Shown piece by piece: positions 1-42,043 of a stretch of 42,043 nt of DNA. Location: NCBI GenBank assembly GCA_022448945.1, contig JAKVCV010000028.1, forward strand, positions 1-42,043. The letters are read 5' to 3'. Positions within the stretch are counted from its first letter, which is position 1; each line of letters opens with the position of its first letter. The stretch is from Saprospiraceae bacterium. Lineage in GTDB: Bacteria; Bacteroidota; Bacteroidia; Chitinophagales; Saprospiraceae. Below the pieces are notes generated by a model, which ran no database searches, was not told where the DNA came from, and was given only the letters and a program-made list of their open reading frames with translations. The position numbers were made by a program, and so were the translations under genes.

Positions 1-77
1 ACATACAGTGAAACCCTATCAAACTATAGGTAGTTCCTGTAACTTGACATTTGATAAATTACGAAATACACAGCTAT
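1..77. repeat. Terminal direct repeat, left copy (circular join)
   Basis: These 77 bases are identical to positions 41967-42043. An exact repeat of this length at both contig ends is what a de Bruijn assembler leaves when it closes a circle, and 77 is a common k-mer size. I therefore read the molecule as circular or circularly permuted, about 41,966 bp long. A true short terminal repeat of linear phage DNA cannot be excluded from sequence alone. Confidence 0.9.
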
Positions 78-641: not shown

Positions 642-845
642 ATGACTTACAACTGACGAACTAACAGAGCAACTCGACTTGTGAACTTGCATTTTAACCC
701 TGAAACAATCGAAGACGTAGAGAACGCCAAGTATTTATTAGAAGAAATGTATGACAATATAGACAACTTATTAATTACTGATTTATTGCCAAACATTGAA
801 GAAATAGACCGAGAAGAGCTTAAAGAAGCAACAGAACAAAAATAA
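642..845 (+). CDS. Small acidic protein, unknown
   Basis: A 67-residue protein with one UGA glycine at residue 5. It is acidic and likely helical from about residue 25 (ENAKYLLEEMYDNIDNLL, then an E-rich tail). I do not recognise the family. The start follows a TATATTATATT stretch, the element shared by early genes here. It is the first gene of the plus-strand block, downstream of the candidate origin, a usual place for early host-take-over proteins; that role is only inferred from position. Confidence 0.75.
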
Positions 846-880
846 TATCACACTATTTATTATATTATACTATTAATATC

Positions 881-1216
881 ATGAACAACTACAAGAAACT
901 TCAACATTTTGTTGACCTATGCCCAAAAGGTGCAACAATTGAGAGATTATCTCATAACACATGCAAACGAGAAACCGAGGATAAAGAAGGTATATTATAC
1001 GAATATACACACATTGTTATCAAAGACAAAACAAACGATGATATCAAATTGAACACAGATTGACGGTATACCGAATCAACAAAACGCAAGATGAATGAAT
1101 ACTTGTCTGATTACAGGATCAACGTATTTCAAAAGAATAAAAATCGATTTGTTACATTTTGAGAATACCAATGCTCGCCAATAACAATTGATTATTACGA
1201 CAACATGACAATATAA
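881..1216 (+). CDS. Early protein, unknown
   Basis: A 111-residue protein of unrecognised family. Two in-frame TGA codons are read as glycine: one at residue 62 and one in the FGEY motif near residue 91. Reading either as stop would cut a continuous, well-composed protein. There is no signal peptide or membrane segment. The ATG follows a TATTATACTATTAATATC leader. It stands alone between two other small early genes on the same strand with short AT-rich gaps. Confidence 0.8.
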
Positions 1217-1247
1217 AACCATTTTACACCCTTATATTATTATTATT

Positions 1248-1505
1248 ATGACATATGTTTATTGAACGAAAACAGATCCAAACATTTATTCCAATGCAAA
1301 AAACCCTATTACAAGAGTATATGTATGCGAAACGGAAGAAGAAAGAGATTTTGCAATGTATAGCCTAATAATGACGACAAACGAAAAGTTCGATTTTTAT
1401 TGAGAAACAACAAACAAAGCAAAAATACCCAAAAAATACAAAAACGTATATCATAAACTTATAAAAACAGACAAAAACAAATTTTACAGTAGAGTTATTA
1501 AATAA
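1248..1505 (+). CDS. Early protein, unknown
   Basis: An 85-residue, lysine-rich protein of unrecognised family, with UGA glycines at residue 6 and in the FYGE motif near residue 54. The pattern of an N-terminal strand, an acidic turn (CETEEERD) and a basic C-terminus suggests a small soluble domain. The start follows TTATATTATTATTATTATG, a strong copy of the early start element. No function can be assigned. Confidence 0.75.
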
Positions 1506-1526
1506 ATTTATACAAACTACAATGCT

Positions 1527-1646
1527 ATGACTAGATTTAAATATGCCATTTGATTTATAGAGTCTATACCTTTTGAGTTTTTTATTTGTTTATTTGTTGC
1601 AATATGAATAGTGATGACTTACAAAAAACTTTATACGCAAGGTTAA
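1527..1646 (+). CDS. Possible tiny membrane protein
   Basis: A 39-residue ORF whose centre (IPFEFFICLFVAIGIVM) would form one transmembrane helix, followed by a basic tail. It needs two UGA glycines. It overlaps the next gene by 43 nt in another frame, which lowers confidence. Several other one-helix proteins lie in this block, so a real gene is plausible. Confidence 0.45.
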
Positions 1647-1795
1647 TAGTGAAAGCTAAATCTTATAAAAACTGAATGCGACATTATAAGACAATAAAAG
1701 ACGTTGAAGACACAGCGTCTGAAATATCAATTTTATGAGTTCCTTTTATTTATAATATTATTACAAAAACGCTATGTATACTAAAGAAATGATAA
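1604..1795 (+). CDS. Early protein, unknown
   Basis: A 63-residue protein with a basic N-terminal half (KAKSYKNGMRHYKTIKD) and a hydrophobic C-terminal segment (ISILGVPFIYNIITKTL) that could associate with the membrane. Three glycines use UGA, including the last residue before TAA. Its end overlaps the start of the next gene by 22 nt, suggesting translational coupling. The family is not recognised. Confidence 0.65.
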
Positions 1796-1974
1796 GAACG
1801 TGCGAAATACCAGTTGCAAAAATCGCACGTAAAGCAAGGGTTAAATTGGACAGAATAAAAAACTATATGCATTGAAGAGGTAAAATCACCCCAGAGGAAA
1901 GAAACAAAATAAAAACGTATATATGCACAGTTTGCGAAAATTGTATTGATTTAGTCAATAATCAATCTTTATAA
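1774..1974 (+). CDS. Small HTH-like regulator
   Basis: A 66-residue, basic, helical protein. Residues 10-45 (CEIPVAKIARKARVKLDRIK, then a turn and TPEERNKIKTY) have the spacing of a Cro/CI-type helix-turn-helix, in which one helix packs on a recognition helix and a third closes the fold. That family resemblance comes from pattern, not a full match. A C-terminal CTVCENC motif could bind metal or form a disulphide. One UGA glycine lies in the HGRGK turn. It could control early or origin-proximal promoters; that role is inferred. Confidence 0.65.
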
Positions 1975-2093
1975 GATAAATATATAAATGATAACAATAA
2001 AATTTATAATTGAAAACTTTTTTTATCATTGAATGTTTTTTTTATTGTATATTACTATTTGAATAATTTTTTTTTATCTAATAATTAGAGAAC

Positions 2094-2255
2094 ATGAATA
2101 AAAAACAAGTAAACGTATGAATGTTTATTGCAGGCGTTATGGGATGAGTAATAGCTAATATTGCAGGGCTAAGCATTGTTTCAATGATTATAATGTGATT
2201 ATTTTTATCTATTATATTTTATACTATAACAATACCCCGACATGATGAACGATAA
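2094..2255 (+). CDS. Small membrane protein, two helices
   Basis: A 53-residue protein with two probable transmembrane segments: residues 9-28 (MFIAGVMGGVIANIAGLSIV) and residues 30-45 (MIIMGLFLSIIFYTIT). A short basic N-terminus and a charged tail (PRHDER) flank them. Three glycines use UGA. It overlaps the next membrane gene by 14 nt. Holin-like or superinfection-exclusion roles are possible, but nothing in the sequence decides between them. Confidence 0.7.
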
Positions 2256-2334
2256 TTTTATGTTTTGAGTTATAGCGTATGCTATACTAATGTTATTTAT
2301 GATGGCTATAGTTTTATTATCTAATATTATATAA
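2242..2334 (+). CDS. Tiny single-helix membrane protein
   Basis: A 30-residue ORF that is almost entirely one hydrophobic helix (FMFGVIAYAILMLFMMAIVL). The start could be 2242 or 2245 (two adjacent ATGs). It overlaps the upstream membrane gene, and its stop overlaps the next ATG as TAATG, so the three genes look translationally coupled. No function is recognised. Confidence 0.55.
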
Positions 2335-2714
2335 TGCCTAAAAGAAAAGTTACAGATTTTATTGATGAAGTGTGATCTTCAACGTACATCTATGAAGAAT
2401 ATGGTAACGACATACATGTCGGTAGCAGAGAACTTAAAGAATGAGATTGGTGTTATGTTAGTGACAAAAGTGAGCAAGAAGCGTTAGAAGATAAGCAAAA
2501 AGCTATTTTTATATATTCCGATAAAAATTGAACAAATTATTGTGTTGCAGGGCAACGAGAAAAAGAGTATAGAGCATGAACAACATATAATGTACATCCT
2601 CGAAAATATGCAGTACCAATACCAAAAGAAGCAAAGAAAAGACGCAGAACAAGACCACTTACAGATAGTCAACGAGAGAAAGCAAAAGAGAATAATTACT
2701 GATTAAATATTTAA
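2334..2714 (+). CDS. Early protein, unknown
   Basis: A 126-residue soluble protein with acidic N-terminal regions and a strongly basic C-terminal stretch (KEAKKRRRTRPLTDSQREK) that could contact nucleic acid. At least five UGA glycines are needed, so the standard code breaks it into pieces. It begins at the TAATG overlap with the preceding membrane gene. I do not recognise a family. Confidence 0.8.
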
Positions 2715-2731
2715 TTTATTATTATATTATC

Positions 2732-3220
2732 ATGAAGATAGAAATAGATTTTAACGCACAAGATGTTATAGACAAGTACATAAAAGAAAACATTGAATGA
2801 CACAAATCTCTTTCGTGATACTTGAGGTATTGCCTAGAAGATGATATAAACACAATAAAAAAACAAAAAATTGAAGATGAGATAAATAAAGAATTGCAGA
2901 AAATGTGAGAAGAAGTTATGTTTAATCAGTCAAAGAATTTTACTTCATCACGAATGAACGAGTTTAACTCCAATGTATCTAAGCATCTATCCCAAAAGAT
3001 TGATGAATATATTGAAAAAAAAGTAAGTGATTATGAATTAGAAAGGAAAATAGATTGATTCATAAATTGATACATTAAAAATAAAATAGAACCTTATTTG
3101 ACAAAACAGATACAAAAGATGATATGTATATCCACCGATGAAATAGATGATATCCATTCATGTATAGATCATGCTTTACAAACTTGATATGAAGCATGAA
3201 GAGAACAATGTCCTTTTTAA
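2732..3220 (+). CDS. Helical early protein, unknown
   Basis: A 162-residue protein that is highly charged and probably mostly helical, with coiled-coil-like stretches (INTIKKQKIEDEINKELQKM and KIDEYIEKKVSDYELERKID). Several UGA glycines occur. There is no signal peptide. The start follows TTATTATATTATC, the early start element. Function unknown; the composition suits a scaffolding or host-interacting protein. Confidence 0.8.
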
Positions 3221-3238
3221 TTTATTACTGAAACCAAA

Positions 3239-3331
3239 ATGTTTCACAATTGAGTACAACAATTTGCATGTTTTGTAGCTATAATATTGTTTATGCTTTT
3301 AGTGGCAGATATAGTTGCATTATTTATGTAA
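3239..3331 (+). CDS. Tiny single-helix membrane protein
   Basis: A 30-residue ORF with one hydrophobic helix (FACFVAIILFMLLVADIVAL) after a short polar N-terminus that contains a UGA glycine. It resembles the tiny membrane protein at 2242 in size and design but not in sequence. It sits directly upstream of the structured intergenic region. Confidence 0.55.
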
Positions 3332-3353
3332 ATTGTTATAGTGAGTGTATCAA

Positions 3354-3460
3354 ACACCGACCATCGTTTGAGTTTGAAAATGAGGGGTAGTCCTTATGAA
3401 AGTTATACATTACGGTGTATAAACAAACGGTAAAAGCCTTATAGCTTCCTTGGTCGGTGT
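3354..3460 (+). ncRNA. Candidate structured RNA, multibranch fold
   Basis: In a 158-nt gap, ACACCGACCA (3354-3363) pairs perfectly with TGGTCGGTGT (3451-3460), a closing stem of 10 bp. Inside it, CGTTTG (3365-3370) pairs with CAAACG (3424-3429), TTATACA (3403-3409) pairs with TGTATAA (3416-3422), and AAGC (3434-3437) pairs with GCTT (3444-3447). The nesting is consistent, and the GC content of the outer stem stands out in this AT-rich genome. There is no T-arm signature, so it is not a tRNA. It could be a phage ncRNA or a cis-acting leader for the replication gene at 3490. The strand is inferred from the neighbours. Confidence 0.6.
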
Positions 3461-3489
3461 GCTATGAGGTTTTTATTTTATAGTAAAAA

Positions 3490-4239
3490 ATGAAAAAAAA
3501 CTATCTTATACATGACGACAGTTTGGAAATATTTGATTGATTGTCTGATGAACAAATAGGCAAATTATTTAGAAAAATTAGAGATTATCACAAACAAGAA
3601 TGATACGATTCTCACGATCCAGTAGTTGACATTTGTTATATAACATTTAAGAATCAGTTTGATAGAGACGAGAAAAAATATAAGAAAAAGTGTCAAAAGA
3701 ACCGTGAGAACGTCGATAAGAGACGGAATACGAAACAGTACGAACGCATACAATCGAATACGATTGAATACAAACGTATACAATCGGATACGAACTATAC
3801 CGATAAGGATAAGGATAGGGATAAGGATAGGGATAGGGATAGGGATAAGGATAAGGATAAGGATAATAATGTAACTATTGTGAAAGAAATAAAAGAAACC
3901 TCTGGCGAGGTGACAGATTTTATACCATCTGTAAAGAAATTTACAGCACAAGCATATAAAAACAAAAAGTCTATGAGGACTATTATAGATAAAGTAGGAA
4001 GTGAGAAGTATATACAAGATCAATATGCTGAGTATAGGAAGCTGGAAAGAAAATGATATGACTGAAAGACTATTGATTATGTATTGGAGTGGATAGAAAA
4101 TGATAGCTTTTGGAAAAAAAACATTATGAGCATTAAGAAATTGAATAAAAAAAATAAGGACTGATTTTTGTATATTGATATGATAATCGACAAAGCAAAA
4201 GAAGATCAAGAAAAATCATCTTTTTATATATTTGAATAA
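3490..4239 (+). CDS. DUF6291-like replisome-organiser candidate
   Basis: A 249-residue protein. The N-terminal 90 residues, with a helical start and the motif KKKCQKNRENVDKRR, resemble the DUF6291/phage replication-organiser type found near phage replication genes. A low-complexity linker at residues 105-125 alternates Asp with Lys or Arg. A basic, helical C-terminal half (KKFTAQAYKNKKSMRTIIDK, then a YVLEWIEND motif) may bind DNA or a helicase loader. Four or more UGA glycines occur. Its place just after the candidate RNA and before a possible partner gene fits replication initiation. Family assignment is by pattern and moderate. Confidence 0.7.
3802..3864 (+). repeat. Hexanucleotide GATAAG/GATAGG repeat in CDS
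   Basis: Ten head-to-tail units of GATAAG or GATAGG encode an alternating Asp-Lys/Asp-Arg linker. Because the unit is six bases, gain or loss of units keeps the frame and changes only linker length. Confidence 0.85.
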
Positions 4240-4245
4240 TATTAA

Positions 4246-4575
4246 ATGAATGCACAAGTAATATTTTACAACAACTACAACTCTGGTATAAAAAAAAAAC
4301 TTGTTGTATGTATGGATGTTGTGTCACTCAATAGAATGCTTGAGGAAAAGAAAAGGTTCATGGTATGAGAAGAAACATATATGACCCAATACGCATCAGA
4401 GACAAAACCACTAAAAAAATTCCATAAAGATGATATATCCTGATTAAGGAAAAGAATTAATGAATTAGTGAAAAAATGATTAATCCATAAAGAGGATTTA
4501 CACGACAGTATTCCGTTTAAAGATTTAGTCCCTTCTTTGCCTACTAAAAACAACCAAAATGCTTTGAATGTATAA
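4246..4575 (+). CDS. Winged-helix-like early protein
   Basis: A 109-residue protein. The middle (EETYMTQYASETKPLKKF, then ISGLRKRINELVKKGLIHKE) follows the order expected of a winged helix-turn-helix: a linker, a recognition helix, and a KKGLI wing like those in phage replication and MarR-type proteins. Three UGA glycines occur, one in the KKGLI turn. It lies directly behind the replisome-organiser candidate and overlaps the next gene by 8 nt, so all three are probably co-translated. Role inferred: DNA binding in replication or regulation. Confidence 0.65.
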
Positions 4576-5047
4576 AAAAGCCCATGAGAATAGAGAAAAA
4601 ATTGAAATGTTAGCTAAAGAAATAATAAATGGCAAGACATACAACTGGATGCATGAGAGATGACGCTATGGAAATTTTCTAATGCAATTAAGCATACTTT
4701 GAGGTGATTTATACAAAGAGTTCTACAATAAATTTATCAAAGATTTATCTGAAGAGAAAAAATTGTTAAAAGAAGTGAAAATGACAGATAAATTAAAAAA
4801 AAATTGCAAAAATTCTCTTACAGATAAAAAGTTTGAACATGAAAACTTGACTTGAAACTATAAATTAGACTACAAAGTATTTAAAAAATGAAAAATATTA
4901 GGATGATCTTGTTTTGTTGTAGTAGGTATACCTTACGAGAATGAAAAATGACTGAAGTGTTGATTTTGAGAAATAATAATTGAGTCAGATTATCCAGAAT
5001 TATACAATTTATTAAAAGATAATAAAATACAAACTTTTAGTTTTTAA
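4568..5047 (+). CDS. Early protein, unknown
   Basis: A 159-residue protein, basic in the first half and richer in strand-forming residues in the second half (KILGGSCFVVVGIPYENEKG), ending in a hydrophobic TFSF. About eight glycines use UGA, including tandem GG pairs. The ATG lies within the end of the previous gene, so translation is likely coupled. I do not recognise the fold. Confidence 0.75.
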
Positions 5048-5110
5048 ATAACTTGATTTTTTAGAAAATATCGTTAAGAACACTATATATTTATTATATT
5101 ATACTATATT

Positions 5111-5500
5111 ATGAAATTCAAAAAAGAACGAAATCAGATGAATTATGCAGAAAAGTTGTGTTGTATAAGTTACTTCCCTAAAGAATCACTAAAAGATGAA
5201 GATTATCGTGTTAGATTAAGATCATATAGAGCATTGGGATTTACTAAAGAAGCACTAAAACATCAACATTATAGTGTTAGACTAGAAGCATATAGAGCGT
5301 TGTGATGGACTAAAGAAGCATTTAATGATGAATATCGAAATATTAAATTAGAAGCATATAGGGCATTGTGATGGACTGAAGAAGCACTAAAAGATGAGGA
5401 AGAAGTTATAAGAGAAGAAGCACAAAGGTTTTTTGATCTTGTACAAAATGATGATGATTACATTATCATAAATTGAGTAAAGTACAAACGTGTAGACTAA
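5111..5500 (+). CDS. Tandem helical-repeat protein A (4 repeats, LRV/HEAT-like)
   Basis: A 129-residue protein: a 21-residue N-terminal cap (MKFKKERNQMNYAEKLCCIS), then four 23-residue units of form G-[WF]-T-[KE]-E-A-[LF]-x-D-x4-[IV]-R-L-x-A-Y-R-A-L, then a C-terminal tail ending in YKRVD. The helix-turn-helix repeat, with conserved Arg-Leu and Ala-Leu-Gly positions, resembles leucine-rich-repeat-variant or HEAT-type solenoids, which bind proteins. The first glycine of each unit is GGA or TGA, which proves UGA is glycine. It is the smallest of three adjacent paralogues with nearly identical caps. Confidence 0.85.
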
Positions 5501-5523
5501 GTTTTATTATATTATACTATATT

Positions 5524-6387
5524 ATGAAATTCAAAAAAGAACGAAATCAGATGAATTATGCAGAAAAGTTGTGTTGTATAAGTTACTTCCCTAAAGAATC
5601 ACTAAAAGATGAAGATGCAAGTATTAGATTAAATGCATATAGAGCATTGGGATTTACTAAAGAAGCACTAAAAGATCAACATTATCGTGTTAGGTTAGAA
5701 GCATATAGAGCGTTGTGATGGACTAAAGAAGCATTTAATGATGAATATCGAAATATTAGATTGGACGCATATAAAGCATTGTGATGGACTAAAGAAGCAT
5801 TGAAAGACGAAGATAGAGATATTAGATTAGAAGCATATACAGCATTGGGATGGACTGAAGAAGCATTTAATGATAAAGATGGAAGTATTAGATTGGAAGC
5901 ATATAGATTATTGTGATGGACTAAAGAAGCATTTAATGATGAATATCGAAATATTAGATTGGACGCATATAGAGCATTTTGATGTACTAAAGAAGCACTA
6001 AAAAATAAAGATTATCGTGTTAGATTAGTAGCATATAGAGCATTGTGATGGACTGAACAAGCACTAAAAGACGAAAATAGAAATATTAGATTAGAAGCAT
6101 ATACAGCATTGGGATGGACTGAAGAAGCATTTAATGATAAAGATGGAAGTATTAGATTAATCGCATATAAAGCATTGTGATTTACTGAAGAAGCATTAAA
6201 AGACGAAGATTATCGTGTTAGATTACGATCATATAGAGCATTGTGACGGGATAAAGGAGCATTTAATGATGAATTTTCAATCGTTAGATTGGGAGCATAT
6301 AGAGCATTGTGATGGACTAAAGAAGCATTAAAAGACGAAGATGAAGTTATAAGAGAAGAAGCACAAAGGTTTTTTGATCTTATATAA
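5524..6387 (+). CDS. Tandem helical-repeat protein B (12 repeats)
   Basis: A 287-residue paralogue with the same cap as copy A and twelve 23-residue units. Of the eleven glycines that open repeats 2-12, three are GGA and eight are TGA at the same alignment position. Some units are nearly identical at DNA level, which suggests recent expansion by unequal recombination. The tail stops early: ATA-TAA replaces the GTA-CAA of copy A, although the old tail remains readable in the same frame downstream (DDDYITIGG, then YKRVDVD). The likely role is a protein-binding solenoid; the target is unknown. Confidence 0.85.
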
Positions 6388-6467
6388 GATGATGATTATA
6401 TTACTATAGGTTGAGTACAATACAAACGTGTAGACGTAGACTAAGTTTTATTATATTATACTATATT

Positions 6468-6974
6468 ATGAAATTCAAAAAAGAACGAAATCAGATGAAT
6501 TATGAAGAAAAGTTGTGTTGTATAAAGTACTTTCCTGAAGAAGCACTAAAAGATGAAGATCGAAGTGTTAGATTGCGAGCATATAGATTATTGTGATGGA
6601 CTAAAGAAGCATTTAATGATAAAGATGAAGATGTTAGATTAGAAGCATATAGAGCATTGGGATTTACTAAAGAAGCACTAAAAGATCAACATTATCGTGT
6701 TAGACTAGAAGCATATAGAGCGTTGTGATGGACTAAAGAAGCATTTAATGATAAAGATGAAGATGTTAGATTAGAAGCATATAAAGCATTGTGATGGACT
6801 AAAGAAGCATTGAAAGACGAAGATAGAGATATTAGATTAGAAGCATATAGGGCATTGTGATGGACTGAAGAAGCACTAAAAGATGAGGACGAAGTTATAA
6901 GAGAACAAGCACAAATGTTTTTTGACCTCATAGATGATGACGATAACATTACCGTAGTAGTTTACTTTTTCTAA
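6468..6974 (+). CDS. Tandem helical-repeat protein C (6 repeats)
   Basis: A 168-residue third paralogue with a nearly identical cap (MNYEEKLCCIKYFPEEALKD), six 23-residue units and a different C-terminus (DDDDNITVVVYFF). The opening glycines of its units again mix TGA and GGA. The leader upstream (CGTGTAGAC, a purine gap, then TATTATACTATATTATG) matches the leader of copy B and that of the next gene, so the duplicated block includes the start signal. Confidence 0.85.
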
Positions 6975-7059
6975 GCAAAGACATATATAATGATTACATT
7001 ACTTTAAATTGAGTACAATACAAACGTGTAGACTAAGTTTTATTATATTATACTATATT
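6975..7059 (+). other. Remnant of a repeat-protein tail and leader
   Basis: Downstream of copy C, positions 6989-7035 still match the DNA that encodes the C-terminal tail of copy A (GATTACATTA, then CGTGTAGACTAAG) although copy C has already stopped. The common AT-rich start leader follows. This is a footprint of recombination between the paralogues. Confidence 0.65.
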
Positions 7060-7272
7060 ATGTTTCAAAAAATTATTTGTTACAATGAAAAAGGTGATGC
7101 TTTTTATGAACATCCTACTACTGCATTAGTATCAGAACAGCAAAAAAGCTCTTATGAATTAGCTATTAATATATCAAAGGCTGATATCATAGACATATCG
7201 GAGACAGAATATTTGCAATTGATTAATAAAAACAGTTGAGAAGATATATTTAAAAACTTAAATAAAAGTTAG
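7060..7272 (+). CDS. Early protein, unknown
   Basis: A 70-residue acidic protein unrelated to the repeat family, although it carries the same duplicated leader. It has a mixed strand and helix pattern and one UGA glycine near the C-terminus (NKNSGEDIF). It ends with TAG, which confirms that TAG is still a stop. No family recognised. The shared leader suggests it is expressed together with the repeat proteins. Confidence 0.75.
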
Positions 7273-7298
7273 TTAATTTTATATATTATTATTATATT

Positions 7299-7904
7299 AT
7301 GTGAGGTATTAAAGAAAATTTAGAAAGTAAAAGACAAACAAGATTTGTAAAGTTATTGTGAATGAGACAGTGAGAAGAAGCTAAGTTTTGTATAATATCT
7401 TGAGAAGAAAAGTCTACATACGAAGGTATTGAATGATATTTTGTTTGAGCAAAACGTAGTGAATATGAACGACAATGACAAAAAATAGACACTTTTATCA
7501 TTACTTTGAAAGATGAAGAATGACTTATGGAACGATCAGCAAGCATGAATAATGTTACAAGATCAATAATTAATTCTATTTTGTGACTTTCTTTAGAAGA
7601 TTTATGAAAAAAGTTAACCTTTAAAGTACGTGAAAACAAAATAGACAAAAACATTTATAAGAACTGATATTTATATTGTGAATGAGATAAAACACAACGA
7701 AAATATAGCAAGGAAGAAGAGAAATCAATGATTACATATGATGATTTTAAAGGTCAGAAAATAGCTAATAAAACAAAATTTGACGAAACTTTATTTGAAT
7801 GATTGCTTAAAATTAGTGAGTTATTTGAAAAAAGCAAAGAGGAAACATCAGAAAAAGACATTTTGGGATTCTTGGAAGAAGAAAAAGATGATTTTCTTTT
7901 TTAA
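7299..7904 (+). CDS. Single-stranded-DNA-binding-like protein
   Basis: A 201-residue protein. The N-terminal 120 residues look like a strand-rich, basic core. The C-terminal 45 residues become acidic and end in EEEKDDFLF, an acidic tail with terminal aromatics as in phage SSB proteins, where the tail recruits replication partners. It has at least a dozen UGA glycines. It sits directly before a PD-(D/E)XK nuclease, the usual pairing in phage recombination and replication modules. A gp2.5-like OB fold is the inference; the core is too diverged for me to be sure. Confidence 0.65.
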
Positions 7905-7931
7905 TTAAAAATTTTATTATTAACCTAGAAA

Positions 7932-8939
7932 ATGAGATTATCCTATTCACAAATAGAAAAATTTATAAATTTTAAATGAGAATGGTATTGGAAGTATGTT
8001 CTTTGAAATAAAGAAGATAATTATAGCTCAGCAAAAGTCATAGGTAAAGCTTGTCACCTTGCTGTCGAGCATATAAATAGATATGGAGAAATTGATCGAG
8101 AAATTGTAAATAAATTTGTATTATGAGAATGTATGCAAAAGATAGATGACTCTAACTTGTGTTATGAAACAAATATTAATGATTCTTTAGTTGTAGAAAG
8201 AGCAATAAATAACTTTGTAAATCACTATTATAAAAATTGAATAAAAAAATCATCATGACAAGTAGAATGACTTGTAAAATGAGAATTATTATGAAATGAA
8301 ATAATATGATATGTTGATCTATTAACTGAAGATTGCATCATTGATTATAAGTTTGTTGCAAGTCATACAAAAATGTGATCTTGATTTAAAAGTCCATTTA
8401 GTCCAAACCTTACAAACGAACAAAAATATAAAATACAATGATATATTTACATGAAGTTATCATGAGTTAAAAAGGTTGTCTTTATAGAAACATTAAAAAA
8501 AGATCTTACTATTTCACCATCATGATCTTGATACAGGAAATCAGATTTAATTTCTTTATGTAAAGATTTCGATCCAAAAGACGTTAAACTGACTATGCCT
8601 AAAATTGTAGAAAAATATAAACCAAAAAAGATATGAGTTAAAGAGATAGTTATAGAAATGTCAGAAGAGTTAGAGAAAGAAGTATTAGGTATAATAGAAC
8701 CAGCAATAGAAGAAATGAAAGAATATACTGACAATGCAGAAAAGAGAGTATTGAATACTATCGATAGTTATTTTGATAAAATAAAAAAGATACAAGATAA
8801 AGTTATGGATGAGAAAGATAGCACAAATATGGCAAAATATATATCAGATGTAGCAGATTTAATATTCCAAATGGAACTTAAACACTCTGAAATGAAAAGT
8901 AAATATAAATCTGAGTATATAAAAAAAAAAGAGAATTAG
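7932..8939 (+). CDS. PD-(D/E)XK (RecB/Cas4-type) nuclease
   Basis: A 335-residue protein. It opens with LSYSQIEKF, the usual start of this superfamily, followed by GKACHLAVEH (His42), then GYVDLLTEDCIIDYK carrying Asp129, Asp138 and Lys140 as the metal-binding core, and a downstream QGYIYMKL motif (Gln169). Residues 230-335 form a long charged helical extension, perhaps a coiled coil. About 25 UGA glycines occur, concentrated in the nuclease half. Such enzymes act as phage recombination exonucleases. Its place after the SSB-like gene supports DNA repair or replication-recombination. Confidence 0.85.
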
Positions 8940-8947
8940 GAGAATCG

Positions 8948-9133
8948 ATGTCTCAAGCTAGAGCAGAAACAGAAGCAAAGGCTTATTGTGAAGAAATGTG
9001 ACTATCATCATATGAAAAGATAAAAGATATATATATGTCTCTTAAAGACAGACTTCTTACTAAAAAAGAAGTTATACAAGCTGTTAGGCATGAGCAAAAA
9101 ATGAAAAATATATATATAGATTACAAATCTTAG
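8948..9133 (+). CDS. Small early protein with a classical RBS
   Basis: A 61-residue helical, charged protein of unknown family with one UGA glycine (EEMGLSS). Unlike most genes here it has a good Shine-Dalgarno, AGGAGA at 8938-8943, spaced from the ATG at 8948. It starts just behind the nuclease stop, so it is probably its partner in the same operon. Confidence 0.7.
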
Positions 9134-9155
9134 TTTTTATTACTTATATATTATT

Positions 9156-9659
9156 ATGAGAAATTATATTAACGCATTTATTATTTTTTTTTGAGTTTTG
9201 TTTTGTTTAGGAAGTTATGCAAATAAAACTTATGATGAAAATACTGTTATAGTTTATAATTCTGTTGTTCATTTGTGACTTGATTTAGAACTAGCATTGC
9301 ATGTTGTTGGTGAATGTAATTGATCTTGAGATCGGCAACATTGTTATAAATTTACTGTATGAATAATGAAAGCAGAGAGCTCGCTGTGTCAAAAGGCTAG
9401 CAGCAAGAATAACTGTTTTGGGATAATGCACCGACCAGATCGAAACTGAAATAAAAGAACTGTGAAAGGATATGATAGCCACAAAGAAAGCATAACTGAT
9501 TTTGTGAGAAGGTATAAAAAGTATCGGCAATATAGACAAGACACTTCTTACTGGGTCTTACCAAAATGAAACTACTGTACAGACCACTGTCAAGATCGAG
9601 AATGAAATGTACAATATGCAATAAATATAATGAATAAACCTTTAGATATTAATAAATAA
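9156..9659 (+). CDS. Secreted lysozyme-like muralytic enzyme
   Basis: A 167-residue protein with a signal peptide (INAFIIFFGVLFCLGSYA) and then a cysteine-rich mature part. The stretch GIMKAESSLC, then NNCFGIMHR and YDSHKESITDFVRRY follows the pattern of glucosaminidase/SLT-type lysozyme folds, in which a glutamate (here Glu74) is catalytic and an FGI motif lines the cleft. Eight or more cysteines suggest disulphides outside the membrane. Being in the early block, it may aid host-wall remodelling or act as a second lysin. Enzyme class is inferred from pattern. Confidence 0.65.
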
Positions 9660-9660
9660 A

Positions 9661-9903
9661 ATGACTTGAACAATACTAGCAATAACATTGTATGTTATAT
9701 GAGCATCACACACTGGTAGTTTAGAGCCAGTTAGAGAAGTAATACCTTACTATGATATGAAACATGAGTGCGATATAAGAGAATGATGACGAGTTAGTGA
9801 TAAAGAATATATAGCTGATTGTGATGGTTTTTATTTAGTTTTTGATACAGATAATATTTTACGGTGGAGAGTACGAAAAACAGAGAATAAAATATGTTTT
9901 TAG
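9661..9903 (+). CDS. Small exported protein, unknown
   Basis: An 80-residue protein with a hydrophobic N-terminus (GTILAITLYVIGASH) that looks like a signal peptide or anchor, then a short domain with three cysteines (HECDIREGG, YIADCDGFY, KICF). It starts one base after the stop of the lysozyme-like gene, so the two are likely coupled and act in the same compartment. A lysin inhibitor or partner is possible but unproven. Confidence 0.65.
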
Positions 9904-9948
9904 GTAATTAGTTATTAATTAAATATTTTATAAATTTATTATTACAAA

Positions 9949-10200
9949 ATGATTGATAAAGAAAAAAACTTAGTATTTGGAGTTACTCCTCCAAAAAATT
10001 GAGAAAGAGATTACTTTGTTGGCACTCCTTGATTTGCAGAGGAAATATGAATGGTTTTTGATTGTTTCAGGCATTACACCTGTGAATCAGAAAAAGAGAA
10101 ATTCGAGATATTAAAATATTATAAATCTATTGAAGATACTGTACTTTTTTCAGAAAAAATTGTTGAGGTTATAGAAAACTGATGATCATTGCCTAATTAA
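9949..10200 (+). CDS. Early protein, unknown
   Basis: An 83-residue soluble protein with five UGA glycines, two of them adjacent near the end (ENGGSLPN). The N-terminal VFGVTPPKNGERDYFVG resembles a small strand-rich domain. The start follows TTATTATTACAAA. No family recognised. Confidence 0.75.
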
Positions 10201-10220
10201 TTTTTACATATGAAAATAAA

Positions 10221-10436
10221 ATGTACATACGAGATAAAGGGTTATATTACGAATTTATGACACCAGAAAAAATCAATCGATCAAAAGCAGATGCTCTATG
10301 AATTGAGTATGTAGGCGAAGAGATAAGCCATGAATGCTATGCAGTATTGCATGTAAAGAAAGATTGTTTGCCTTACGAACCTGCAACAGAAAAGTTAGCG
10401 AATGAGTTAATACAAAACCTTATAGTCAAAAAATAA
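10221..10436 (+). CDS. Early protein, unknown
   Basis: A 71-residue protein with one UGA glycine (DALGIEYVGEE). It has no membrane segment. An alternative frame opening at 10210 stops after 34 residues, so I chose this longer frame. Function unknown. Confidence 0.7.
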
Positions 10437-10456
10437 TTTTATAATTTATACAACAA

Positions 10457-10642
10457 ATGAACAAAGCTAAAGAAATGCAAAGATTACAAGGATATTGCAA
10501 TAAGATAAAAGAAAACTCTAAAATAGAAGATATATGCGATAAATATGAAGAAAAAATAAATAACATTTTTAACATGACAGAACTAGAAATAAACCAGTTA
10601 AGAAGAGATCTAGAAAAAGTTATTAGTCACAGATTTTACTAA
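10457..10642 (+). CDS. Small coiled-coil-like early protein
   Basis: A 61-residue, charged, probably all-helical protein with heptad-like spacing (ICDKYEEKINNIFNMTELEI). It contains no UGA codon and so would read the same in the standard code. Family unknown. Confidence 0.75.
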   Translation: MNKAKEMQRLQGYCNKIKENSKIEDICDKYEEKINNIFNMTELEINQLRRDLEKVISHRFY

Positions 10643-10652
10643 AAACAAAAAA

Positions 10653-11186
10653 ATGATAGATAAATATATGTGAAATGAATATGCAAAAGAATACGCTGTA
10701 AAATTAAGAGACTTTATAAAAAAAGCAAATAAACATATATTCGACAATCATCATATGACACCAGTATCAATACATTGACACGACAAAGAATACAATAGGA
10801 TATATTTACGAAGACCTATGCACGATCATATACATAGCGTCTTGAATATACCTAAAAAAAGGTATCACCAAATAAAAAGAAAATACAGAGAGAAGACAAA
10901 CCACCTTATAATCAAAAGTCCTCAGATGGTAAAAGAAATACATGAAATGCAAACATTCTACTTTAAAAATTATTATAAACTGTTAGATGTAGAAAAACAA
11001 ATGCACAATACAAAAATGCGACAGACCGTCAAACATTGGGAATCTGTAGCAGATACATACATAGAGTATGACTCTATGGATTACATGTGACATTTTCAAG
11101 ATATGCTGTTCCACAAAAACATGATACATTTAAGAATATCAGAAGAGATACAAGACACATTATCAAAAAAGTTTTATAACAAATAA
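10653..11186 (+). CDS. HNH-like endonuclease
   Basis: A 177-residue basic protein. Residues 30-62 (DNHHMTPVSIHGHDKEYNRI, then LRRPMHDHIH) match the H-x-N-x-H layout of a beta-beta-alpha-metal HNH nuclease: His33/34, Asn48 and His57/61 at the expected spacing, without zinc-binding cysteine pairs. The C-terminal half is helical and basic. Three UGA glycines occur. It may be a free-standing homing-type nuclease or one used in packaging; the distance from the terminase genes argues against packaging. Confidence 0.65.
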
Positions 11187-11191
11187 TAGGT

Positions 11192-11356
11192 ATGCAGGGT
11201 ATAACCATATACAAAGGTAAAAAAGTTAGTGTTGTAAAAGCAGATGGCAAAATAGACGTATGGCACAATTGAAAAAAGCTAAAAATATCCTTGCAAGTAA
11301 AGCATGATTTATATAGATCTATGCTAGATGATATATACAAAAACAGTAGAATATAA
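11192..11356 (+). CDS. Small basic early protein
   Basis: A 54-residue, lysine-rich protein with a strand-rich start (GITIYKGKKVSVVKADGKID) and a helical end. One UGA glycine. It is the last gene of the plus-strand early block and is followed by the bidirectional terminator. Function unknown. Confidence 0.65.
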
Positions 11357-11715: not shown

Positions 11716-12396
11716 TTATTTATTAGAATGTAAATCATCTATCTTTCTGCTAATCCTTTCTATCAATACTCACATCAGATACATAGTCTCGCTGATCTGT
11801 TCCGCAGGCTTTAGATTACTAATCCTTTCTACTGCTCATTGTGGGTCTTGAAATACTCTTTCTTCTTTTTCCGTGTTGCCGTTTTCATCATTTCGTATTT
11901 TCTCATAGAATTGCATTGTTCATGCTAAGTAAGATAAAAACTTTGTGTATTCTTTCCATCATCAGTATCTAGGTTCGTAGAACTCTGGGGCTATGTCTCG
12001 TTTCCTGTCTGGGGCTATGTGCCAGTGCCTAAGAACATTGCTGTCACTTATCTGATGATCTTGCATCAACTGTATAATCAACTGTTGACAAGCTATATGC
12101 TGTTCCTCTGTAAATCATGGTCATATAACTTCTACCCCTATACTATACCTATTCATGTCCTCTTTTCAATCTCGTTCACTTACTCAACAATGTCGTAATA
12201 TATCATTGTCCTTGTTTATTTTGGTGATGCCTCAATGTTCATCTACAAGATAGTGGTAAGAAGCGGGGTAATTGGGGTCTTGCAAAGCATTAAGAAGTCA
12301 CTCCTTAGATCATAGTCAGGTTGCCGTATGATGAAGTATTATATACTCACATGTGTTTACTCATGGGTGTTTTTTATCCGTCCGTACTTGATCCAT
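11716..12396 (-). CDS. N-acetylmuramoyl-L-alanine amidase (endolysin)
   Basis: A 226-residue Amidase_2/AmpD-type enzyme that cuts the bond between N-acetylmuramic acid and the stem peptide. Visible motifs are IILHHTATG (zinc ligand His22), SYHYLVDEHGGI, SIGVEVIG, and RHWHIAPDRKRDIAP with His124 and Asp134 as the other zinc ligands and Lys132 at the usual catalytic position. No signal peptide is seen, so release through the adjacent holin is expected. More than a dozen UGA glycines interrupt it in the standard code. Confidence 0.92.
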
Positions 12397-12415
12397 TTTT
12401 TTTGTATATATAAAT

Positions 12416-12532
12416 TTAGTTATCACCTACAAATTGTAAACATTCTTGTATGGTGTAAAACTCTTTATAATGTTGTTTATTCATTGTTCATTTTATCCAA
12501 CATACTTTCCCTGTTTTACTAGCAACAATCAT
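12416..12532 (-). CDS. Possible small ORF before the amidase
   Basis: A 38-residue ORF in the gap between two minus-strand genes, with one UGA glycine (CWIKGTMNK). It ends 20 nt before the amidase ATG. Composition is plausible but it has no recognisable motif. The gap also holds an inverted repeat (TTTGTAAG with CTTACAAA near 12555-12580), so a regulatory role for the DNA is an alternative. Confidence 0.4.
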
Positions 12533-30497: not shown

Positions 30498-31478
30498 TTA
30501 AGCACCTTGACTTCAATACATTCCTACTGGAGTGTTAACTACACCAGTTTTGTAGTAATCAAAGAAAGGAACAGAATACAGTTGAGTTCTTTTATCGTAA
30601 TCAAATTCACCGTCCATTGTTGGTCTTTGGTGGAAACCTGTATAGATAGGATTTACCATCATTTGTGAATCAAAATCAGCCATAAAGTAGTATGCAGTAT
30701 CAGATTCTACATATACAGATGGTATGATTTGTCGACCGTTACCTAGTTGTTGGTTAACACCTTCATTGATAGCGTCGATTTTTGTTGGTTTATATTGTAG
30801 AGAAACATTGTCTCCTAAGATTTTTTTCCATTTTTGGTGTGCCTTACCACCGTCTTTCACCAAAATTCTTTTTGTGTTAAATGGCATTGGTCTACCAATA
30901 GCATCTACGAAACCTCTAGATCTTTTTTCTACTTCGTCTAGTACTTCAACAGAAGGAGCAGCAGCAGGAAGTAGGTTATCAAACTCGATAGCAGATTCTG
31001 GGCTAAGAAGATGGTTAGCAGAGAAAAGCAATTCACCATCTGGAGATAGAGTGTCAGTAAAACCTTTGTTAATAAGTTCAAATACAGTAGTATTTAACTT
31101 GTTGTATACAGCAGATAGTCTGTCTCTTACGTCTACTTGGTATTGTTTTTCTAGTTTCTGTGTGTTATCCATAACACCTTTCATATATTCTCGTGTGTAG
31201 TCCAAAGAAACAGCTTGTTTAATTGGAGATAGTTCTGTAACGAAACCTTTAGCAGATTTACCTTGTGGTATCTTAGAACCCTCAGCAACGTCTTCAGCAA
31301 CAGAAAGACCAGTAATAGAAACAAATCTTTCAGTAATTTCAGTAGTATCTTCTACTCTAGAAAGAACTGCAAAGTCCGATTTACCCATAGGGTACTCTGA
31401 TGTGTTATCAATAACTTGTTTAGTAGCTTTTGTATATCAATTCCAAAAACTTAGAATATCTTGGTTAGTTCCAAACAT
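30498..31478 (-). CDS. Major capsid protein
   Basis: A 326-residue protein in the position, size and context of a HK97-type major capsid: downstream of portal, scaffold and decoration genes and followed by its own terminator. The motifs KQYQVDVRDRLSAVYNKLNT (a spine-like helix) and IIPSVYVESDTAYYFMADFD with KRTQLYSVPFFDYYKTGVV (P- and A-domain strands) fit. Only 2 of its 24 glycines use UGA, one near each end, an expected signature of very high expression. Without UGA decoding the protein would lose both termini. Confidence 0.85.
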
Positions 31479-32459: not shown

Positions 32460-32780
32460 TTATTGTCATTGCCCGCCCTTACGTGGCTTATGTAACTCTA
32501 ATTTATCAAAAATAATTTTTTTTGCAAGTTTGTGGTATTCAGAGAGTTTTTTTTCGTCTCATCATGCTGATGAAACCAAGTCATTACCTAGAACTGACAA
32601 AAAGTCATCTAGATATAAAACGAGTAATCTTTTTAAATCTAATTCAGTATAAATTACCTCCCTAGATTCTTTTTTTAAATTAAAAAGAATATCTGATTTA
32701 AAAACCTCCTTTTCCTTTATAATTCTATTTATAATTATATCTTGGAATTTTTTCTCATTAAACAATTGGTAAATTGTCAT
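32460..32780 (-). CDS. Small protein between portal and scaffold
   Basis: A 106-residue helical, charged protein with three UGA glycines near its C-terminus (SSAGGDEKK and GGQGQ, the first Gly of GGQ being GGC). The ATG overlaps the portal stop as TAATG. It may be a minor head protein or part of the scaffold system. Unrecognised family. Confidence 0.72.
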
Positions 32781-34717
32781 TATAGTGCTGCCTTATTATC
32801 TAAAGACTCATTTGTTTTAACTATATTATTTGTCATAGCTTGACTTGCCATACTATTAGCTATTCATGTCATTTCTAATCATTCTCAAACAGGTTTTGGC
32901 TTATCGACTCACTCCCTTATCATTAATGTGTTGAGAAATGATAATACTTCAAATTTTAATTCATTATTGATTGCAGAATTAATATATATCCAAAGAGTTT
33001 GCAAATCCAATCAAGGAATAAAAATGTTCTGTGGTTTTAATCAAGAGCTAATCATTTCTTTCATCATCAAAGAATGTCTTTCGCTGCTATCCATTGGTTC
33101 AATACTTTCTATAAAAGCATCGTCAAATCACATTTTTCTATACATTTCACGTTTAAACATCTTAGCTGATATAGGTGACACATTAGGATCTTGTAGAACT
33201 ATTGGAAGTATAGATTGCATATTAGATAGTTTCCTCATATTATCCTCTCTTCTCTTCTTACTTGAAAATACTTCTACAGTAGGATTCAAACCAGAGATAA
33301 AATCTTGCTCTGTTATTTTCAATAATTCTCAATCATCATCTAATAGCTGAGTTACTTTCTTTCATCAATTATCTCTTACATGTTTCCTCATGTATCTCAT
33401 ATAAATTACTTCCCAAAACATTTGCTCTCAAATCATTAGATTATCAGCATCTACATCAAATACAACATTAGACCTTTGCAATTGCAATTCAGTGTCTCAT
33501 AATGTATTTGTATCAGGACTCAGTCATCTTACTATACCAGTTAATCACGTAGTATCCTCTGCTAGTTTTTGTATGTACTGGAAAAACTGCTGAGATTGGT
33601 TTGTATTATTTAATTCTTGTACTGGCTGAGTTATTTGACCCTGCATAGAATCTACAGGTATAAATTTAGGTCAACTCTCTGCTCTATCTAAAAGGTCATT
33701 TATGTTATTTATAGCTCTTACATCAACAAAATAATTATCAAAACCTGCTTCACGCATTTCTTTTATCTGCATAGCATTAATTAGCTTTGTCATTGTTATT
33801 TGTGTAGGATACATTAACTCTCTATATGAGATACCCCATGGGTCTTCTATCAGTGGGAAAGAGTTAGATATAGCAACTGGGAAAGGTATAGTATCAGGAT
33901 ACTTTTTTTCTTGAGGTGTTAATGGTTTTATCTCTTCTCGTTTAATTATCTTCGAGTGAGCATTAGCTAATGTACAGAAATACTTCCTACCATTAATACA
34001 TACAAAACAATTTAACACATATACTGGATCATTGTAACTGTCCATCTGAGTTATTAGCCTTTGTTGTTTTTTTCTTAAATTAGATCTCTGTTCTGAAAGG
34101 GTCTGTCATGCTTGAACCTCATCTAAATCGAAATATCATCACACCACACTCTCTTTGCTTTTTAACTCTCCAATGCTAGTTGACCGACTCATTAGATGGA
34201 AATCAAAGTTATTATCCATAACGTTACCATTAGTATCAGGATACCAACACAATGGATCTATGTTAATAAAATCCACTACCTGCTTAGATCTGTTCCATCA
34301 CAAAGGAATACGTATTCAGACACCATAATCAAAAACATCATACAACATTTCTTTATCTTTTATATGTTTCCTCATTACCTTTTGGTCAAAATCTACTATT
34401 TTATTAAGCTTTTGTGCTACATCTCTGTCATTAAAGTCTGATTCAGTATAAACAGGAGAAATTCACTCATTCTTAAACATAGCAACAAAGGTTTTCTTCA
34501 TCTGAAACAACAAATCATATGTCATCTTGCCAGATGCGTTCATGCTTTTAACTTTATCATCTATTCTTTTATATAATTCTAATTTAGCAGAAACAGCAGA
34601 TTGAGACTTGTTATAGCACTTTCATAACTCCGTTACTATCTCTTCTCTTAACTTTTTATTGCTCTTTATATCTTTTTCCGAAATAGCTTGGTTTTTCTTC
34701 CAGTTTTTTATATACAT
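32780..34717 (-). CDS. Portal protein
   Basis: A 645-residue protein in the size range of podovirus portals. It contains a helical N-terminal segment, a strand-rich wing region (VYVLNCFVCINGRKYFC, PFPVAISNSFPLIEDPWG), a helical stem (YRELMYPTQITMTKLINAMQ) and a C-terminal helical crown. Twenty-two of its 32 glycines use UGA, the opposite bias from the capsid gene. It follows TerL in the usual TerS-TerL-portal order. The portal forms the dodecameric DNA channel of the head. Confidence 0.85.
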
Positions 34718-34787: not shown

Positions 34788-36080
34788 TTAATCAATCCAA
34801 TTACTTACTAACGATTTAAAATTACTTCTATTTCATTTATCTATCAACTCCATAAATACATACCTTATAGCATCAATAGCATGATTATATTCGTCTATAG
34901 GAGTTTCTAAAAAGTTACCGTTCTTATCTTGATCCCAACAGTAATTCCTAAATTCTAGTATAATATTAGTACTTCTAGATGTAATATATATTTTTTTTTG
35001 TTGCATAAATCATATTCAAGACTCAACTCAACCTTTTGTTTTTTTTACAGGTCTTATATTTAATCATAATAAATATAACTCCTCTATCGAATCTGGTCTA
35101 GAAGAATCAGCAATAAATCTCTCAGATGTATTTATACCAAAAGAAATTATTTTTGCATATAATTTGTCGTTCAATATTCATGGAGAATAAATTAATTCGT
35201 CAACAAGTATACCATCTGACCATTTATAGACTCAAACAACTGCAGCTGGATCGTTATATCAAAAATCTATACCGTAACCTATCAACTTACATTCTGTTTC
35301 AGGGTTAATATCGTTAACTATTTGCCACTTACTAAAAATGACACCCTCTAGCTTACCATATTTTCAAAGTCAATAAATTTCTCGCTGTCTTTTATTCTTT
35401 TCCTTTAAAGACTCAATTTCTTTTATGAGAGATTCTCATATAAAAGGATTATCTTTATACGTACTAACTATTACCTCAACATCTCCTTCCTGCTTAGCTC
35501 TTTTTTGCTCTAGTTCTGTATTTATCCAAATGTCTTCACTATCTGGATTAAAATCTAAAAATATTTTGTCATTAGTACGGACTATCAACTGGAAAAATTC
35601 TTCTTGGAACGTTAAAGCATTAGCTTCATTACAATATAATATATCACGACGCTTACCCTTAATTTTTTCTTGATCATCTGCTCACATAAACTCTACCATT
35701 CTTCATCTGTAGGTGTAAGTTTTATCTGTTTTGTTCCTATGTTCTTTGTTTAATAGAAAAACAGTTCATGTATCAACTATTATCTGCTCAAAATCCCTTA
35801 TTACTGTTGATTTTAAGTCACTCTTAAACTTTCTAACAACAGTACATATCCAACTAGCAGATTCCTCTTCTCATTCTGGATACTGTTTTAATTCTCATTT
35901 TTTTCAAAAAACACAATCTTCAGTGTTAACTTCTGAGTCTAGGTAACCAGTAATAAGCCATCTCCAGATTATTTGTAGTATAGAATATGTTTTGCCTGAC
36001 CTAGTACCTCACCTATTAATCTTTATCTTTTTGTCAGACTCTATGTTTTTGTGGAAGACATTTCCTGTTCTAAGTTTCAT
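34788..36080 (-). CDS. terL: Terminase large subunit
   Basis: A 430-residue ATPase-nuclease that packages DNA into the procapsid. Walker A is GGTRSGKT at residues 24-31, and the first glycine is a UGA codon. Walker B lies in RRDILYCNEAN (about 144-154), with the catalytic Glu at 152. The nuclease core starts at GIDFGYNDPAAVVGVYKW, and the C-terminus has TPIDEYNHAIDAIRYVF, a typical terminase end. Start overlaps the end of TerS by 40 nt. This is the most certain identification in the window. Confidence 0.95.
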
Positions 36081-36622
36081 TCAACGATATTATCATCTAA
36101 ATCTTTTGAATTAATAACTTTTCATTCTCATATTCTTCTTACTACATGTTCTATAACTATTTTGTTACTAGATATTTTACCTCAATCAGCATCTTCATGC
36201 CTAACAACATCACTCCATCAATAATTTTTAAGAGCAAATATAGCAGCTGTAGGATTTTCATGTAGTAATTTCTCATATTCCACTTCTATAAGGGTCTTTG
36301 CTCTTTTAATTAGGTAATCAAACTCGTCAGATCTTTTTGCATACTTGTATAAACTACTCTTGTCCCTAAATCACAAAAAAAAAGAAAGATCTCATAGAGA
36401 AGGATTAGGTACATACAATTCCTCATAAGAATCTTTTCAAACTTTTATTCTTTTTTTTCTCGAACACATTCCTCAGTTAAAATATTCTACAATTCTATTA
36501 GCAAGAGCTTCTGGAGTCTTATAAAAAGGACAAGAACCATTCATGCCTCTTGTCTTTTTTCACAAAAGAACATCTTTTGTTATTCAAGATCAACTAATTG
36601 CAATTTTTTTGTTTTTTGGCAT
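36041..36622 (-). CDS. terS: Terminase small subunit
   Basis: A 193-residue protein that recognises phage DNA for packaging. It has a short N-terminal region with CPFYKTPEALANRIVEYFNG and then the pattern LSFFLGFRDKSSLYKYAKRS, EVEYEKLLHENPTAAIFALKN and YGWSD, as in DNA-packaging proteins of the TerS type that precede TerL in many phages. Ten or so UGA glycines. It overlaps TerL by 40 nt and its own start overlaps the preceding small gene by 29 nt. Confidence 0.88.
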
Positions 36623-36827: not shown

Positions 36828-37124
36828 TTATCTAACTATTCTTTTTAATGATTTTCATGGTTTAAATTTTACAACACTTACAGAATTAGTATGAACCCTT
36901 TCTCAAGTACGTAAATCTAAAGTCTCTCTACCTGTATACATAGATTTATAAAAAGTTCAAAATCATCTCAATAGTACTTTTCACTCATCTTTTATTCAAA
37001 TAGACATAACCTCAATAAATTCATCTATAACAGTTTTTGTTTTTTCTTTACTAAAGTTTAGTCTTCTGGAAACCTCATCAATAATAGAAGAAGTATTCAT
37101 TTTTCTATCATAACTATAACTCAT
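36828..37124 (-). CDS. HU/IHF-family DNA-binding protein
   Basis: A 98-residue HU-like protein. The signature LLRGFGTFYKS (about 51-61) is followed by YTGRETLDLRTGERVHTN and VVKFKPGKSLKRIV, in the standard order of an HU arm and C-terminal strand. Both glycines in GFGTF are UGA codons, which independently fixes the meaning of UGA. HU bends and compacts DNA. First gene of the late minus operon, next to the divergent promoter region, so it may help packaging or regulate late transcription. Confidence 0.92.
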
Positions 37125-41966: not shown

Positions 41967-42043
41967 ACATACAGTGAAACCCTATCAAACTATAGGTAGT
42001 TCCTGTAACTTGACATTTGATAAATTACGAAATACACAGCTAT
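41967..42043. repeat. Terminal direct repeat, right copy
   Basis: Exact copy of bases 1-77; see the left copy. Joining them makes one circle and merges the two gene-free ends into a single block. Confidence 0.9.

Follow-up and report, generated by a model that had tools for sequence, protein, structure and literature searches.

Introduction

The genetic code of the Absconditabacteria is NCBI table 37. Codetta analysis predicted that these bacteria read UGA as glycine and both CGA and CGG as tryptophan, and that some Gracilibacteria read only CGG as tryptophan besides UGA as glycine (eLife 2021, PMC8629427; this report and the two phage reports below are cited from partial texts). According to its authors, the reassignment of CGA and CGG in Absconditabacteria rests on few columns. 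Phages with UGA as glycine are already known (PMC10746230; PMC13059738). The code-25 phages and prophages of Absconditabacteria and Gracilibacteria described by Liu et al. (2023, PMC10746230) are dense in in-frame TGA codons read as glycine and yield almost no gene annotations under code 11. RSA-ATP1, a tailed phage of Absconditicoccaceae (mBio 2026, PMC13059738), has a circular genome of ~39 kb with a large terminase, a portal and a NinG-like protein, and its signature genes were predicted only with UGA as glycine.

The 42,043-nucleotide contig analyzed here, referred to in its entirety as the window, resembles these phages in all of these respects. With a probability of roughly 0.85, we interpret it as the genome of a phage that reads UGA as glycine and CGA and CGG as tryptophan with tRNAs borrowed from an Absconditabacteria host, and that was misbinned with a bacterial genome to which it does not belong.

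Genome organization and relatives

The ends of the window are identical over 77 bases (Table 1), and a contig of the Kordia MAG described below carries the same phage in circularly permuted form. The contig is therefore a complete phage genome, circular or terminally redundant, with ~41,966 unique bases. Its terminase and portal genes identify a tailed dsDNA phage (Caudoviricetes), and further products include an exonuclease, a replisome organizer-like protein and an HNH/NinG-like nuclease. ARAGORN and Rfam found no tRNA gene in the window.

Table 1 Features of the window. Coordinates refer to the 42,043-nucleotide sequence.
Feature	Position	Strand	Remarks
Terminal overlap, left copy	1..77		77 bases, exact match to 41967..42043; circular permutation in Kordia contig
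Repeat gene 1	5111..5500	+	129 aa, 3 units counted; HEAT_2 31.5 bits with code 25
Repeat gene 2	5524..6387	+	287 aa, 11 units; HEAT_2 88.4 bits with code 25, 92.5 with CGA/CGG as Trp
CGG codon in Trp column of one repeat unit	6247..6249	+	TGG there in 13 of 19 units
Repeat gene 3	6468..6974	+	168 aa, 5 units; HEAT_2 65.6 bits with code 25
Amidase endolysin	11716..12426	-	Amidase_2 72.4 bits with code 25, 80.5 with CGA/CGG as Trp; AmpDh2 alignment
Probable major capsid protein	30498..31478	-	By position only; same place in G010 and G012
Portal	32780..34717	-	SU10_portal, E 4e-13
Large terminase	34788..36080	-	Terminase_3/Terminase_3C; 18 in-frame TGA; CGA codon 233 (35382-35384) at Trp column
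Small terminase	36041..36622	-	phrog_606, E 1e-14; GP3_package
HU-family DNA-binding protein	36828..37124	-	Profile match; 6 TGA
Terminal overlap, right copy	41967..42043		Exact match to 1..77

The closest terminase relatives among the matches listed are IMG/VR contigs that also read UGA as glycine. A tree of terminases with 85 rows places the five recoded ones, the window among them, in a single group (100/95) beside standard-code phages. Two IMG/VR records of the family are 41 and 44 kb long, and the structural gene order of one related phage, G010, is that of the window. The probable major capsid protein has no PHROG profile match, and when used alone as an IMG/VR query it returned nothing. 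Neither HU nor the portal matched named phages, and megablast with window positions 17100-42043 gave no match.

All seven portal loci found are UGA-recoded, as judged from TGA counts in the portal for five loci and the L140 record, and in the terminase for L041. No portal match was obtained in five standard-code terminase relatives. Three standard-code phages of the terminase sister group (L049, L054 and L058) show no match to the window portal. Modules may have been exchanged, or the host may have shifted, where the two codes meet.

Two side observations concern gene duplication and database annotation. A second, smaller duplication is seen in the paralogue pair at 39393-39770 and 40096-40575, which share the start NTPSLERCKKLK(E/D)IGYPQ. 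The record of Dulem virus 31 (PP511318.1) assigns it to Microviridae, yet its annotated terminase, portal, capsid and tail genes are those of a tailed phage.

Meaning of UGA

Open reading frames of at least 100 residues take up 82% of the window under code 25 and 13% under code 11, a difference by which UGA as a stop codon was rejected. The 41 genes used for codon counts contain 534 in-frame TGA among 11,077 codons and end with TAA (35) or TAG (6).

The large terminase was aligned to 87 relatives with TGA, CGA and CGG masked. These relatives comprise five found by the first two terminase scans of IMG/VR, three named phages and 79 further loci taken from the best 80 of 576 confirmed, the 80th being a duplicate record. 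Nine were removed for in-frame stops, namely five UGA-recoded sequences, each with 13 to 23 TGA, and four others that have a single TGA. The remaining 78 standard-code relatives include many near-duplicates; the cells counted below are sequences, not events.

The earlier note on this DNA had read TGA as glycine, not tryptophan or stop, and had named tryptophan, cysteine or gaps opposite TGA as the pattern that would speak against it. At the 18 terminase TGA codons, glycine occupies 620 of the 1138 cells contributed by these relatives (mostly from the best 80 of 576), tryptophan none and cysteine two, the other residues including Ser (155), Asp (120) and Arg (31). Six of the 18 sites are at least 96% glycine. 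The control codon GGT in the same 78 relatives faces glycine in 501 of 803 cells. Of the six TGA codons in HU, three stand where the GFG and FKPGK motifs have their conserved glycines, and the other three face variable residues. As the portal loci are all recoded, it is the terminase that carries the comparison with standard-code homologues, supported by the amidase and HU. Since the independent columns of terminase and HU both show glycine, the homologue alignments settle UGA as a glycine codon, and the earlier note was right about glycine and about the absence of a stop.

CGA and CGG columns in homologues

The terminase has a single CGA codon, which was first seen to face tryptophan in an early table, and the prediction for Absconditabacteria (PMC8629427, in part) prompted the test. 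At this codon (233), the 77 informative relatives free of in-frame stops, mostly from the best 80 of 576, have Trp 72 times, Lys twice, Ser twice, Tyr once and Arg never. The three CGT codons of the same gene, taken as a control, face Arg in 164 and Lys in 65 of 234 cells.

The comparison was extended to seven phages (the window, G010, G012, L034, L138, L142 and L146) by counting all-against-all codon pairs in 217 alignments with the reassigned codons masked. The near-duplicates L142 and L146 were not paired with each other, and each cell stands for a sequence, with both directions counted, rather than for an event. Pooled over the group, tryptophan accounts for 48 of the 74 informative CGA cells and arginine for none, the others being Phe, Tyr and Ile (7 each), Val and Leu (2 each) and Ala (1); the 22 CGG cells contain Trp 15, Phe 5, Tyr 1 and Arg 1. 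The pooled controls face arginine, CGT in 136 of 225 cells and AGA in 1235 of 2167.

Individual genomes contribute unequally. In G010, TGG stands opposite eight of ten aligned CGA and both CGG sites, the remaining two CGA facing CGA or CGG only. Three of the seven aligned CGA sites of the window face TGG, two Phe or Tyr, one Ala and one only CGA; opposite its single aligned CGG, four relatives have Phe and one has Arg (CGT). G012 gives Trp 5, Ile 5 and Phe 1 for CGA. L034, with Val 2, Ile 1 and Trp 1, would not by itself reveal CGA as tryptophan. Taken genome by genome, the window and G010 make a strong case, the remaining phages a weak one. Support for CGG from the window alone is thin, consisting of the one aligned site and the CGG codon in the repeats.

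Amidase CGA codons 78 and 85 face two tryptophans of the AmpDh2 motif, and portal CGA codon 260 faces Trp in four relatives and CGA in a fifth. In the probable major capsid protein, the relatives have Phe (4) or Tyr (1) opposite CGA codon 96 and Tyr (5) opposite CGA codon 249. Judged by the homologue columns as a whole, CGA is a tryptophan codon, and CGG very probably is one as well. The 41 genes contain 75 TGG, 50 CGA and 10 CGG codons, by which 60 of 135 tryptophan codons would be reassigned ones. Pooled over the phage group, UGA as glycine, CGA as tryptophan and CGG as tryptophan were all found; strict NCBI code 25, in which every codon except UGA is as in table 11, does not describe the group. 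Code 25, as assigned by the earlier note, thus holds for UGA and is incomplete, since the homologue columns make CGA, and very probably CGG, tryptophan.

Decoding and host

In the interpretation put forward here, a complete tailed-phage genome would be translated with UGA as glycine and CGA and CGG as tryptophan, with genes ending only at UAA and UAG. Because the window has no detectable tRNA, the phage would have to borrow from its host both a glycine tRNA for UGA and a tryptophan-charged tRNA for CGA and CGG. A host in the Absconditabacteria or the Gracilibacteria is plausible from the code. A member of the Absconditabacteria is the most likely candidate, since CGA as tryptophan was predicted for that group only (PMC8629427, in part). 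A Gracilibacteria-type host is unlikely. UGA as glycine is common to Gracilibacteria, some of which are predicted to read CGG as tryptophan (same source); here, CGA is the commoner of the two codons (50 versus 10) and is tryptophan too.

Profile scores under the two readings

The reading preferred above, with CGA and CGG as tryptophan, was also compared with the arginine reading by means of Pfam and PHROG bit scores. With tryptophan, Pfam scores rose for Amidase_2 (72.4 to 80.5), Terminase_3 (58.1 to 62.4), HEAT_2 (88.4 to 92.5), HEAT (70.9 to 80.1) and SLT (15.4 to 16.3), and did not change for HNH and Terminase_3C. All 14 PHROG amidase families listed rose, the best from 67.5 to 75.0. PHROG terminase families shifted by at most 1.6 bits, and one marginal family was lost.

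Some scores count in favor of plain code 25, by which UGA alone is reassigned, CGA and CGG stay arginine, and they line up with tryptophan by chance or through drift at low genomic GC. Terminase_6N fell from 22.9 to 19.9 and Glucosaminidase from 21.5 to 20.4, as did side matches of repeat gene 2 (GH-E 25.5 to 17.2, HEAT_GCN1_C 27.3 to 24.6, UPF0147 21.4 to 18.5). The majority of the HNH families in PHROG also lost a little, one of them going from 37.6 to 35.9. In one repeat column, CGA in gene 2 corresponds to AGA in a near-identical unit of gene 1, which plain arginine also explains. The absence of arginine from all 77 terminase cells and all 74 pooled CGA cells, in a phage group where CGT and AGA do behave as arginine codons, makes this explanation very improbable.

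Two bins, one phage

The window is an entire contig of the source bin (4.35 Mb, 99% complete). A genome-contig scan for the phage confirmed only the same phage in the MAG of Kordia sp. isolate ALOHA_ZT_18, as contig NZ_JAKVBC010000042.1, 99.9% identical over the 21.3 kb compared. The Kordia contig breaks off at window position 5166, within repeat gene 1, and at 6449, in the leader that precedes gene 3; with its ends there, it cannot serve to verify the number of repeats independently.

The source bin contains two RF-1-family proteins, which by length and sequence are RF1 and RF2, and the Kordia MAG has three RF-1-family matches. The two RF1 proteins are 49% identical. A tRNA survey of the source bin gave at least 35 matches (150 of 329 candidates scored), of which 33 loci were passed through ARAGORN, the other two lying inside those; none of the tRNAs typed has a UGA-reading anticodon. 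The source bin thus appears standard-coded. Apart from the phage contigs, window positions 1-20000 gave only short, weak matches to both bins, the best with an E value of 0.006 (40 of ~183 candidates scored per genome). Neither a shared code nor chromosomal linkage was found to join the window to the genome in which it was binned; it is a contig of its own with overlapping ends. An integrated prophage of the source bin was rejected on the latter ground.

It is scarcely credible that the phage truly infects Kordia or the organism of the source bin, with a recoding of its own. Its contig was binned with two MAGs, and among the named phages listed for the terminase, those of Flavobacterium score highest (35.7% identity). 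No tRNA was detected in the window itself, and infection of the two organisms was rejected on the basis of the release factors, the RF1 divergence, the lack of sequence kinship over window positions 1-20000 and the source-bin tRNAs, the last of which bear on the source bin only. Since the same phage occurs in two very different bins and its code is unsupported by the source bin, it was probably misbinned twice. The contig would accordingly be foreign to the bacterial genome that it was assigned to. The public Kordia MAG, which serves as a species representative, thus holds a UGA-recoded phage contig, probably as binning contamination.

Tandem repeat genes

Three adjacent genes (Table 1) consist of tandem units that were located by the anchor [AS]Y[RKT][AL][LF] and yielded a gap-free alignment of 19 units (3 + 11 + 5). 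Position 1 of the unit is encoded by TGA in 14 units and by GGA in five, exactly the counts given in the earlier note, whose proposed codon-level alignment of all units this is. The unit length of 23 residues given there was too long, as the period is 66 bp, or 22 residues. Each gene is closed by a degenerate cap repeat with Asp at the glycine column (GAT twice, GAC once), so that the column with caps counted comprises 14 TGA, 5 GGA and 3 Asp. GCATTGGGATGG occurs at window positions 5842 and 6106, and GCATTGTGATGG at six places.

On a tree of the 19 units, from which the first codon was left out, the TGA/GGA pattern requires two changes; the 19 positions are therefore not 19 independent observations. 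Taken alone, the column suggests that TGA and GGA have the same meaning, and to call this proof within the window, as had been done, overstates a two-change pattern among paralogues. The second column of the unit contains 13 TGG, 4 TTT, 1 TGT and 1 CGG; by its alignment, this CGG is probably also read as tryptophan. Recoding of UGA to tryptophan is known among phages (PMC10746230, in part), but such a reading (code 4), or a real stop with readthrough, has next to no chance here, being refuted by the 1138 terminase cells devoid of tryptophan and opposed by the 534 in-frame TGA of the 41 genes.

The tail of gene 2 is shortened: its TAA (6385-6387) is followed in the same frame, up to 6450, by a C-terminal tail of the gene 1 type (..DDDY..YKRVD). 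Exact copies of an AT-rich element of 25 bases, the last three of which are the start ATG, lie at 5502-5526, 6446-6470 and 7038-7062, in front of repeat genes 2 and 3 and of an unrelated small gene. The element is a leader carried along by the duplications.

The structure of gene 3 was predicted with an alignment of the three paralogues (mean pLDDT 90); the single-sequence fold of gene 2 had a pLDDT of 40. The gene 3 model is a helical solenoid in which each unit contributes one 11-residue and one 5-residue helix, and the glycines encoded by TGA or GGA (residues 43, 65, 87, 109 and 131) are the first residues after each long helix. Glycine is a common helix cap at such positions. The strictness of the glycine column would thus be explained by a helix-capping role after the long helix.

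With code 25, all three genes exceed the HEAT_2 Pfam cut-off of 27.7 (Table 1). The best fold match is alphaRep (E 4.8e-4, TMq 0.40), with TMq no higher than 0.43 among the matches listed. AlphaRep provides the best matches by sequence as well as by fold, and the likeness is modest. The weak viral matches include phage leucine-rich-repeat-variant proteins (E 0.12). HEAT/alphaRep and leucine-rich-repeat-variant solenoids are likewise all-helical repeat solenoids. The usual HEAT unit has ~30 to 40 residues and is longer than the unit here; the window repeats differ from HEAT/alphaRep in their 22-residue unit, their 11- and 5-residue helices and their low fold similarity. No homologue of the repeat protein was found in IMG/VR, in five records of related phages, fragments among them, or in named phages. 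The protein probably functions in protein binding. In the interpretation put forward here, the repeat genes would be ordinary passengers, tandem duplicates of one helical-solenoid protein.

Comparison with known systems

The known code-25 phages share UGA as glycine with the window and differ from it in other respects. RSA-ATP1 carries four tRNAs, including a UGA-reading tRNA-Gly, in contrast to the window, in which none was found. It was read with code 25, and neither 'CGA' nor 'tryptophan' occurs in the available main text (PMC13059738). The two phages are compared here by their descriptions. The hosts of the phages of Liu et al. were predicted by CRISPR spacers, whereas the host of the window is proposed from its code; 'CGG' and 'CGA' do not occur in the available text of that report (PMC10746230). 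No printed report of CGA or CGG as tryptophan in phages was found in the open PubMed Central literature, and one report of phages with reassigned sense codons was found (PMC8629427, in part). The two phages that it describes, with AGG as methionine, are likewise predicted to follow a sense-codon reassignment of their host without a tRNA of their own; they differ from the window in the codon and in the host group.

A family comprising the window and at least five distinct IMG/VR contig lineages has likely evolved under a doubly altered code, in which one stop and two sense codons changed meaning and CGA as tryptophan labels the host. If so, the code itself would allow phages of Absconditabacteria and Gracilibacteria to be told apart by sequence alone, and this sense-codon change would have been no lasting barrier to infection. 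Reading such phages with code 25 puts arginine in place of tryptophan at 60 positions in the 41 genes of the window.

The nearest counterpart of this code is that of Absconditabacteria cells, for which the same combination of UGA as glycine and CGA and CGG as tryptophan was predicted (PMC8629427, in part), there in cells and here in phages. Per 10,000 codons, the window has 45 CGA (50 of 11,077 codons), 9 CGG and 68 UGG. Its CGA frequency exceeds that of every species in that report (below 37), where codons were counted in aligned Pfam domains only. In one genome there, which has 30 CGA, 24 CGG and 35 UGG per 10,000, the share of reassigned codons is higher than in the window. Should the present interpretation be correct, 60 reassigned codons among 135 for tryptophan would represent an advanced stage, comparable to the most advanced Absconditabacteria genome described in the available text, and would lend independent support, from fast-evolving genomes, to the cellular reassignment of CGA and CGG.
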